Assembly (NCBI GenBank): GCA_001412365.1
Contig: LKUE01000240.1
Coordinates: 1-9,981, forward strand
Source: Desulfuromonas sp. SDB
GTDB taxonomy: Bacteria; SDB-A
Direction of reading: 5' to 3'
Length of the DNA: 9,981 nucleotides
The notes under the pieces were generated by a model. It was not told the origin of the DNA, searched no databases, and worked only from the letters and a program-made list of their open reading frames with translations. A program made the position numbers and the translations under genes. Below are positions 1,867-4,679 of this stretch, in pieces; position 1 is the first letter of the stretch, and each line of letters begins with the position of its first letter.

Positions 1867-3099
1867 TCAGGTTAATGTCTTTCCGTGAAAATCCAGGCCT
1901 TGGCTAGCTGCTTCTGTTTTGATGTTAAATTTATTTGCCACCCCTTTCAACAACCTCCCCAGCACATCTCCTCCGGTAATTATCCATTTTCTTTGATTTG
2001 TCCAAATCAAAGCTACATCAATATCAATTACATCGTCATCAGGATGTTCTGCATGTACAAGAAAATTATCTACAACCTCTCCTAATTTTACCTCTGGATT
2101 ATCATAAACCTCGACTCTGAAGCTATGGGCTAATGGGTTAAAACTCACATCTTGTTTTAAGCTAAAAGATACAAAGGCATTTCGGACAAAACCGTCTGCA
2201 TCCAGGATAAATTGGGGATAACCTGTCTTTTTATTGGTTATTACAAACCAGGGATGCTTTATTCCGGCGATGTATTTTTTAATGAACTCCCGGGGCGGAG
2301 GAAAACAGGGATTATCCTGTTTAAATTTCAGGGTGATTATAGTCCGGGGATCAAGAGGCTGACCAATTTCACTGGCTAATTCATCATCAGCCCTAGCTGC
2401 ATTCATCAGAGTTTTCAATTCCCGGGGATCTAAAATTCTATCGGAGGGGTCATTTTTTTCTCCTCTCCAATCTTTTAATTCCATTTCCAACTCACTTAGA
2501 AGCTCAGGTTCTTCTAAATGACGTATGGCTTCACGCCCGTAAAGGGAATCTATTATTTTAGCCAGAGGATAGGAAACCGGGCTGGTAATCCACTTCAAAA
2601 GCCAGATCAACGGTGAAAAAAGATAGCAGATAACACCGGCATATCTTAAAAAAGTAGCCTGGGCAAAAAATTCACCGATAATAGTAATGCTGATAACAGG
2701 CATAATTATCCCCAGCACCCCAATAAATAAAACATCGCTTAGCTGACTTAAGTAAACTCCAAACCCGACATTGGTAAGAAGTATTGCCGCCAAGGTCCAA
2801 TTTGGATTCTTAAGATGTCCCATCAACATTTTAGCCCGTTTGGCAAGTATTAATGCCTTACTTTCGGGAGAAGCATTTCTTCCCCTCCATATAATTTTCC
2901 TCAGATCTCTTCTGGACAGGGCAAAGTAAGATACATTGGCTCCTGAACATACAGCATATCCAGTAAGAAAAATTACCCAGGAAAACCATTTAGGATTTAT
3001 TGACCAGGAACCAATGTTCAAGCTTTTTATGTTGAGCCCGATAAAAGCAGCAGTTAAAGCAAGTAAAAAAATTGAAATAATTATAATTCTTGATTTCAT
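1867..3099 (-). CDS. DUF21/CNNM-type membrane protein lacking a clear CBS pair
   Basis: The 410-aa protein has a hydrophobic N-terminal half with about five membrane-spanning stretches: residues 5-22, 39-60, 101-120, 123-141 and 154-172. Its motifs match the CNNM/CorC (DUF21) transmembrane domain: CSGANVSYFALSRRDL (51-66) corresponds to the family's small-residue turn plus FSLSRxRL, LLTNVGFGVYLSQL (107-120) to LLxNNxxN, and IGEFFAQATFLRYA (141-154) to the GExxPKxxAxRxA motif. The usual Pro-Lys is replaced by Ala-Gln. In CNNM/CorC proteins this domain is linked to Mg2+/Na+ transport and followed by two CBS domains. Here the soluble part (about 190-410) does not show a canonical CBS pair; only LGEVVDNFL and the KWIITGGDVLGRLLKGV end (371-387) recall CBS-like strands. 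A divergent ion transporter or regulator at the inner membrane is the best guess. No Shine-Dalgarno sequence precedes the ATG; TATAAA lies 5 bases upstream. Confidence 0.65.
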   Translation of the reverse strand: MKSRIIIISIFLLALTAAFIGLNIKSLNIGSWSINPKWFSWVIFLTGYAVCSGANVSYFALSRRDLRKIIWRGRNASPESKALILAKRAKMLMGHLKNPNWTLAAILLTNVGFGVYLSQLSDVLFIGVLGIIMPVISITIIGEFFAQATFLRYAGVICYLFSPLIWLLKWITSPVSYPLAKIIDSLYGREAIRHLEEPELLSELEMELKDWRGEKNDPSDRILDPRELKTLMNAARADDELASEIGQPLDPRTIITLKFKQDNPCFPPPREFIKKYIAGIKHPWFVITNKKTGYPQFILDADGFVRNAFVSFSLKQDVSFNPLAHSFRVEVYDNPEVKLGEVVDNFLVHAEHPDDDVIDIDVALIWTNQRKWIITGGDVLGRLLKGVANKFNIKTEAASQGLDFHGKTLT

Positions 3100-4053: not shown

Positions 4054-4062
4054 GGAGCTAAT

Positions 4063-4093
4063 AAAAAAAGACCTGATTATTTCTAATCAGGTC
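4063..4093 (-). terminator. Intrinsic terminator of the ArsR / His-Cys-rich unit
   Basis: GACCTGATTA (4070-4079) and TAATCAGGTC (4084-4093) form a perfect 10-bp stem with a 4-base loop. On the minus strand it is followed by seven T (4063-4069). It starts 22 bases after the stop codon of the His/Cys-rich gene and acts in the minus direction only; there is no T-run on the plus side. Confidence 0.88.
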
Positions 4094-4115
4094 TCATTCA
4101 GCAGAAGATAGTTAT

Positions 4116-4286
4116 TTATGAAGACAGATTTTTCTCAATCATATCCGCTTTTTCTCTCAGCATCTTCACACATTCTTTCATATGCTCCAGATCTTTCTGA
4201 TCATCCGGTTTTTCCAGGCAACAGCATTTATGGGGATGATCATGATGGTTGCCGCAGTGATGGCTTGAGTGATGATGATTGTTCAT
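4116..4286 (-). CDS. 56-aa His/Cys-rich metal-binding miniprotein
   Basis: The product starts MNNHHHSSHHCGNHHDHPHK and continues CCCLEKPDD. It has ten His and five Cys, nine of the His and four of the Cys within the first 23 residues. The second half (about 29-54, LEHMKECVKMLREKADMIEK) is a charged amphipathic helix, probably a coiled coil. This is a cytoplasmic metal buffer or storage/chaperone design, comparable in composition to Hpn-type or metallothionein-like proteins but without recognisable homology to them. Support for a real gene: GGAGG (4294-4298) 7 bases before the ATG, a promoter with the ArsR operator just upstream, the ArsR gene 57 bases before it, and a strong terminator after it. 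The His/Cys cluster favours Zn, Ni, Co or Cu(I); the ion cannot be fixed from sequence. A longer open frame on the plus strand here is a shadow of this gene. Confidence 0.85.
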   Translation of the reverse strand: MNNHHHSSHHCGNHHDHPHKCCCLEKPDDQKDLEHMKECVKMLREKADMIEKNLSS

Positions 4287-4308
4287 TTTTTTTCCTCCAA
4301 ATGTTAGT

Positions 4309-4337
4309 TAATTAGAATATACTAATACAATTGCCAA
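4309..4337 (-). promoter_or_regulatory. Candidate promoter of the His/Cys-rich gene
   Basis: On the minus strand TTGGCA (4332-4337) and TAATTA (4309-4314) are 17 bases apart. The 16-bp palindrome at 4311-4326 covers the -10 and much of the spacer, so a bound repressor would block polymerase. This lets the small gene be transcribed independently of arsR. Confidence 0.5.
4311..4326. promoter_or_regulatory. ArsR-type operator, copy 1 (before the His/Cys-rich gene)
   Basis: ATTAGAATATACTAAT is a dyad with perfect 5-bp arms (ATTAG / CTAAT) and 7 of 8 symmetric pairs matching. The identical 16 bases recur at 4647-4662 in front of the ArsR-family gene, while the flanking bases differ. AT-rich dyads overlapping a promoter are typical ArsR/SmtB binding sites. 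Confidence 0.75.
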
Positions 4338-4343
4338 AAAATT

Positions 4344-4637
4344 TTAATTTTTCAAAAAATTTTCTCCCAGAACATTCGTCACCAATTCATTGAATTCCGC
4401 TAACCGTTCCCGATTAATTGAATAATGAACAAAATTGTAATGCTTATTTGCATGAACAAGATCAGCCTGCCTCAATATCCGTAAATGCTGGGAAACAGCA
4501 GACTGGCTGATATCAAGATGTTTAGTAATACCATTTACACAGAGATGTCTTCTGCCCAGCAGTAAATGAATTATCTTCAAACGAGTGGGATCGGAAAACA
4601 CTTTGTAAATTTCAGATATCTTTTCAATTTGCTCCAT
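4344..4637 (-). CDS. ArsR/SmtB-family metal-responsive repressor
   Basis: This 97-aa winged-helix protein fits the usual ArsR/SmtB length. It has the family opening YKVFSDPTRLKIIHLL (11-26), the recognition helix-turn-helix DISQSAVSQHLRILRQADLV (42-61) and the wing NFVHYSIN (68-75). Its only Cys is C33 in HLCVNG, where arsenic sensors carry CxC (ELCVCDL); Asn replaces the second Cys, so a pure ArsR-type alpha3 arsenic site is unlikely. Several His (H24, H31, H66, H71) could form another site. Family members repress until a metal releases them from DNA. The start at 4637 is chosen because the longer frame would begin with TTG and run over the operator and promoter. Beyond a very short leader there is no ribosome binding site. 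The operator copies upstream and downstream imply autoregulation plus control of the His/Cys-rich gene. Confidence 0.9.
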   Translation of the reverse strand: MEQIEKISEIYKVFSDPTRLKIIHLLLGRRHLCVNGITKHLDISQSAVSQHLRILRQADLVHANKHYNFVHYSINRERLAEFNELVTNVLGENFLKN

Positions 4638-4646
4638 AATTAATAT

Positions 4647-4662
4647 ATTAGAATATACTAAT
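4647..4662. promoter_or_regulatory. ArsR-type operator, copy 2 (before the ArsR-family gene)
   Basis: A second exact copy of ATTAGAATATACTAAT, 336 bases from the first. It covers the -10 element TATATT (4652-4657) of the repressor gene and ends 10 bases before its ATG, the arrangement expected for an autorepressor. Confidence 0.78.
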
Positions 4663-4679
4663 GTACTTCTACTTGTCAA
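4652..4679 (-). promoter_or_regulatory. Promoter of the ArsR-family gene
   Basis: On the minus strand a perfect -35 TTGACA (4674-4679) is followed after 16 bases by TATATT (4652-4657). It starts about 20 bases after the stop codon of tldE, so the metal unit has its own promoter even though no terminator is seen after tldE. Transcription would start only a few bases before the ATG. Confidence 0.7.

Follow-up and report, generated by a model that had tools for sequence, protein, structure and literature searches.

The genes of an ArsR-family repressor and of a 56-aa His/Cys-rich miniprotein form a self-contained module in a 9,981-nucleotide stretch of Desulfuromonas sp. SDB DNA (the whole stretch is called the window), and this module is probably a metal buffer under its own control, induced by metal and working in the manner of SmtB/SmtA, although its small protein is not SmtA. 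Comparison with related loci indicates that the module belongs to a wider set of ArsR and miniprotein arrangements and is not an isolated oddity. Outside the cyanobacteria few metallothionein-like systems are known, and annotation overlooks very short genes.

Organization of the module

The module comprises the following features:

4344-4637, minus strand: predicted ArsR/SmtB-family repressor gene (97 aa; ATG at 4637, stop at 4344)
4116-4286, minus strand: putative gene of the 56-aa, His/Cys-rich miniprotein (ORF, codon use, predicted structure)
4647-4662, no strand given: operator 1, ATTAGAATATACTAAT, overlapping the -10 of the arsR promoter
4311-4326, no strand given: operator 2, a 16-mer identical to operator 1, between arsR and the miniprotein gene
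4652-4679, minus strand: arsR promoter P1, TTGACA-16-TATATT (promoter scan, 11/12)
4294-4298, minus strand: Shine-Dalgarno GGAGG, 7 nt 5' of the miniprotein ATG (read from the sequence)
4058-4095 (hairpin 4095-4068), minus strand: intrinsic terminator, 12-bp stem and U tract

The two operators, already described in the initial annotation, are identical over 16/16 bp and show 87% identity across 23 bp. Operator 1 sits on the -10 of the near-perfect P1 promoter. Two promoters had been claimed as well; P1 agrees with this, but operator 2 includes a TATATT, as in P1, with no consensus -35 upstream, and the promoter scan called no promoter there. A second promoter at operator 2 is possible but weak. 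The predicted transcription start is near the arsR start codon, and a Shine-Dalgarno looked for in the sequence at this codon was absent. The single terminator that had been expected was located directly 3' of the miniprotein stop, its stem and U-run folding with z = -5.6. Structured RNA was rejected as an element of the region, no Rfam match being present in the window.

Exact copies of the operator occur only twice in the whole assembly (3.14 Mb), both of them here, and the ArsR and miniprotein module is therefore self-contained. Copies with one mismatch were not found elsewhere in the 3.14-Mb assembly, and those with two mismatches were assembly-wide no commoner than a reversed-pattern control, on which ground a wider regulon was rejected. 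Matches with up to three mismatches numbered 5 in the window against 0.46 expected. The scan of window and assembly revealed the operator at none of the flanking genes, which are a TldD/TldE-like pair and then FmdE and radical SAM genes upstream, and a short-chain dehydrogenase (SDR) gene followed by a gene for a CNNM-domain membrane protein downstream. Both downstream genes lie past the terminator, and the claim that no transporter, reductase or ATPase is part of the module holds. The CNNM-domain gene (1867-3099), the second one downstream, is encoded on the strand of the module and has no operator.

The repressor and its sensor sites

The repressor matched Pfam HTH_5 (PF01022) at E 7e-18, above the cut-off, and NCBIfam HTH_metalloreg (NF033788) at E 2e-24 (85 bits; cut-off 55). 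These matches place it by sequence in the ArsR/SmtB family, with a predicted winged helix-turn-helix of the ArsR type, as was first proposed. Its best solved-structure match is SmtB, and it has no C-terminal metal tail.

The sensor sites were analyzed by alignment with SmtB, with the SmtB residues numbered C61, D64, D104 and H106. An alpha5 zinc sensor requires the ligands D104, H106, H117 and E120. The alignment gives R76 in place of D104 and R78 in place of H106, while the positions of H117 and E120 lie past the local alignment and are by eye V and E; an SmtB-type alpha5 zinc sensor was thus rejected. An alpha3N sensor, defined by at least two Cys ligands from alpha3 together with an N-terminal Cys, was rejected too: C33, aligned to SmtB C61, is the only alpha3 Cys, G36 takes the place of D64 and the N-terminal Cys is absent. 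C33 and H71 are invariant across 13 aligned ArsRs. With no usual alpha5 zinc site and only part of an alpha3N site, the sequence points to no particular inducer, and the repressor may sense by another site or respond to another signal.

The 56-aa miniprotein

The first 23 residues of the miniprotein hold 9 His and 4 Cys, the numbers originally reported, out of 10 His and 5 Cys in the whole 56 aa, and this head terminates in CCC. The predicted helical tail was recovered by AlphaFold2 (single sequence), which gave a confident helix at 30-54 (block pLDDT 83-91) and left the head disordered, with pLDDT 46-51 over the first 20 residues. The ORF looks coding because it has the GGAGG site and a synonymous codon choice that fits the neighbour genes, equalled by 3/5000 composition-matched randomisations. 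Its codon-use score per codon is like that of arsR, and an antisense ORF of 65 aa has a negative score and no fit to the neighbour genes.

Stretches with at least 12 Cys/His in 23 residues were searched for among 8184 ORFs (25-400 aa) of the loci compared, a sample biased in that many loci were chosen through ArsR-associated or coil-tail miniproteins themselves. Such stretches were found in the miniprotein, in those ArsR-associated and coil-tail miniproteins and in one CDF-type transporter of the 'HHDH' type, the sole non-kin ORF with a comparable stretch in these loci. No credible homologue of the miniprotein was detected in the genomes and plasmids of 60 relatives; the best candidate (E 0.004) lay out of frame inside a gene and was rejected. 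Neither Pfam nor NCBIfam, metallothionein models included, gave any match at E up to 1, so the miniprotein was rejected as an SmtA-type bacterial metallothionein, and the Pfam model DUF5320 (PF17253) also gave no match to it. With SmtB as the closest solved structure of the repressor, the original description of the pair as similar to SmtB/SmtA without being SmtA was upheld.

Small Cys/His-rich partners of related ArsR repressors

The initial annotation had treated the module as standing alone; related ArsRs in other bacterial families, however, are also followed by small proteins rich in Cys/His. Of the 30 related ArsRs with the best scores, 14 had a Cys/His-rich small ORF, defined independently of the profiles described below, 3' of them in the same orientation, an upper estimate given that ten of these loci were also seeds of the ArsR profile. 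As controls, the same 30 ArsRs had such an ORF downstream antisense in 2 cases, upstream on the same strand in 1 and upstream antisense in 1. The next 33 ArsRs had 5 downstream on the same strand and 2 in each of the other three positions. On a tree of 71 ArsR sequences the partner types cluster, with 3 changes compared to a shuffled mean of 8.4. The window ArsR was placed without support on this tree; the nearest by path were an ArsR of genome G177 and the ArsR of genome G137, the latter having a coil-tail partner. In kin loci ATPases of ABC transporters are frequently encoded next, and ArsP-like or TauE-like permeases occasionally, consistent with metal handling or export. Two phylum-restricted searches near the closest ArsRs found more ArsR-ABC loci and no His-rich partner.

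The first partner type consists of Cys-rich proteins of 39-57 aa with a CTPEQIKECHGD..HPC motif, located 3' of related tail-less ArsRs in many families (L061-L074); they frequently overlap arsR, and an ABC transporter ATPase is often next. Membership was judged by the motif C..KPE...KPEDCTPEQIKECHGD..HPC. In two of three other genomes of the window's family a related ArsR overlaps a Cys-rich protein of 45-46 aa (MCKKKHCEKDVKPGECSKEQIKECHGENSKHPCEKKGCCEKEEKNN and a close relative), and in the third (L067 85-230, near a contig end) the QIKECHG ORF is disrupted, with a shift of frame and a stop. A profile built from three QIKECHG proteins found matches in 15 of 386 genomes, from many families, at E up to 0.01; 13 of the 15 adjoin an ArsR, as do 10 of the 12 not used to build it. 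Examples linked to an ArsR are L065 1486-1623 and L069 1447-1620, and in L073 (1489-1968) the ArsR and the QIKECHG Cys region are joined in a single ORF of 159 aa, an apparent natural fusion. The QIKECHG proteins had no match in Pfam or NCBIfam. The window miniprotein resembles them to the eye (KPDD...MKEC) and was rejected as a member, its profile score being within that of shuffles; the profile also had no match in the window's own genome. Beside the ArsR loci, L093 (1241-1522) and L089 (129 aa, 41 nt after the ArsR) hold further Cys-rich ORFs whose N-terminus is leader-like and whose repeats are of the CCCGG type.

The second type was found by surveying related ArsRs and comprises proteins of 61-109 aa with a His/Cys-rich head, an RRF linker and a helical tail, LExYKxxLxxELxGVEE ('RRF..EE..LE.YK'). 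In 11 loci (L155-L163, L173, L175) they lie at most a few hundred bases from an ArsR, and most of these ArsRs end in a Cys motif of their own (CxCGC) and a similar coil; some other members of the coil-tail family have no ArsR neighbour. Their closest Pfam model is DUF5320, at 15-22 bits compared with a gathering threshold of 27. The window miniprotein, as modelled, shares the architecture of this type, namely a His/Cys head followed by a helix, encoded 3' of a related ArsR. It was rejected as a coil-tail member by profile, as 41/4000 shuffles of the full sequence and 688/4000 of the tail scored as high; it has no RRF linker, and the coil-tail profile had no match in the window's own genome. 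The miniprotein is thus an analogue of the second type and not a member, and is possibly a reduced relative of the coil-tail proteins. The search for an 'HHxxxHHC..CCC head plus helix' that had been recommended yielded architectural analogues, none of them truly homologous to the miniprotein. No description of the miniprotein types was found in the open-access papers that were searched. Together with the two recurring kinds of partner, both of them below Pfam/NCBIfam cut-offs, the module suggests that bacteria commonly meet metal stress in a minimal way, by pairing an ArsR with a very small metal-binding protein.

Proposed function

We infer metal binding, derepression, buffering and self-assembly for the miniprotein/ArsR unit, as follows. 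An ArsR dimer bound to both identical operators would repress its own promoter and miniprotein expression. A thiophilic or borderline metal (candidates are Zn, Cd, Cu(I), Ni and Co) above the capacity of the cell would release the repressor, and arsR and the miniprotein gene would then be transcribed as far as the terminator. The His/Cys head would bind the surplus metal, the free metal would fall and repression would be restored; the helical tail probably serves self-assembly of the miniprotein. We favor this metal buffer because the repressor belongs to the HTH_metalloreg subfamily with SmtB as its closest solved relative, because operator 1 lies on the -10 and operator 2 just 5' of the miniprotein with no other exact or one-mismatch copy, and because the miniprotein ORF has a coding signal, a Shine-Dalgarno and a terminator. 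It is further supported by the 14/30 ArsRs with a same-strand downstream Cys/His ORF compared to 1-2/30 in the controls, by the clustering of partner types on the ArsR tree and by the ABC ATPases and ArsP-like or TauE-like permeases of kin loci. The missing alpha5 ligands, the single alpha3N Cys and a miniprotein with no detectable homologue argue against it.

The miniprotein could instead be the partner of the repressor, handing metal to ArsR or binding ArsR directly, as a split-off form of the CxCGC-plus-coiled-coil tail found at the C-terminus of related ArsRs. A Cys-rich motif and a similar coil close the ArsR as well as the miniprotein at related loci, and the miniprotein profile matches the tails of these ArsRs (E about 1e-5 to 1e-8); the window ArsR has no such tail, and L073 carries an ArsR and the other, Cys-rich kind of partner in one ORF. 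However, coil bias contributes to these matches, as the same profile matches unrelated coiled coils (e.g. FtsB/DivIC-like) at about E 1e-6, and the tail of the window miniprotein does no better than shuffles against the coil-tail profile; judged from the sequences, such a partner seems unlikely. The head with 9 His in 23 residues also brings to mind the Hpn proteins of Helicobacter, which are small His-rich nickel binders (PMC4671568), and by this analogy the miniprotein would be a nickel (or zinc) store for metalloenzymes and not a detoxification buffer. ArsR-family control is, however, typical of a response to excess metal, the partners in kin loci are mostly Cys-rich and none of the window genes matched in Pfam encodes a nickel enzyme, which makes a store quite unlikely.

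The absence of the canonical alpha5 ligands bears as well on whether the repressor answers a metal at all. Together with the invariance of C33 and H71 in the 13-sequence ArsR set and a TauE/SafE-family gene beside one kin locus, it would fit a non-metal signal (redox, sulfane sulfur or arsenite) read via the alpha3 Cys, with the miniprotein as a thiol reagent or chaperone. We regard this as very improbable, since a thiol switch would be expected to have more than one Cys in each subunit and nine head histidines suit metal better than sulfur chemistry. A broader and distinctly speculative proposal, to which we give little credence, is that the ArsR and miniprotein pairs of many families constitute one mostly unnamed minimal class of metal homeostasis, in which the regulator's metal-binding, coil-forming end has a free-standing counterpart, a miniprotein acting in trans on the repressor, the window holding a reduced His-rich version.

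Comparison with known systems

In cyanobacteria ArsR/SmtB-type repressors control metallothioneins: the SmtB/SmtA genes diverge with about 100 bp between them, BxmR/BmtA form an operon and AzuR/NmtA are unlinked, and the operators of these repressors are 12-2-12 inverted repeats (PMC8790569). The window module resembles SmtB/SmtA and BxmR/BmtA in having an ArsR/SmtB repressor dedicated to a tiny protein with (here predicted) metal binding. It differs in that its genes are co-directional with two operator copies, whereas smtB and smtA are divergent, and in that its operator is a 16-bp element and not a 12-2-12 repeat. Unlike SmtA, the miniprotein has a His/Cys head and a helix with no Pfam metallothionein match and, unlike SmtB, the repressor has no alpha5 ligands.

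The QIKECHG loci, which occur in the window's family too, share with the module a related tail-less ArsR and a small thiol-rich protein directly 3', but their partner is Cys-rich and not His-rich, lacks a long helix and frequently overlaps arsR, with an ABC transporter often next. The coil-tail loci likewise place a His/Cys head and an amphipathic helix under a related ArsR, but their proteins are longer (61-109 aa) with an RRF linker, and their ArsR usually has a CxCGC-coil tail. Hpn and Hpn-2 of Helicobacter, compared here by their features, are small His-rich metal binders, as is predicted for the miniprotein, but are set apart by a different regulator, NikR, and by the lack of a Cys-cluster and helix design. 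The window module thus shares the logic of the cyanobacterial ArsR/metallothionein systems, but not their parts.
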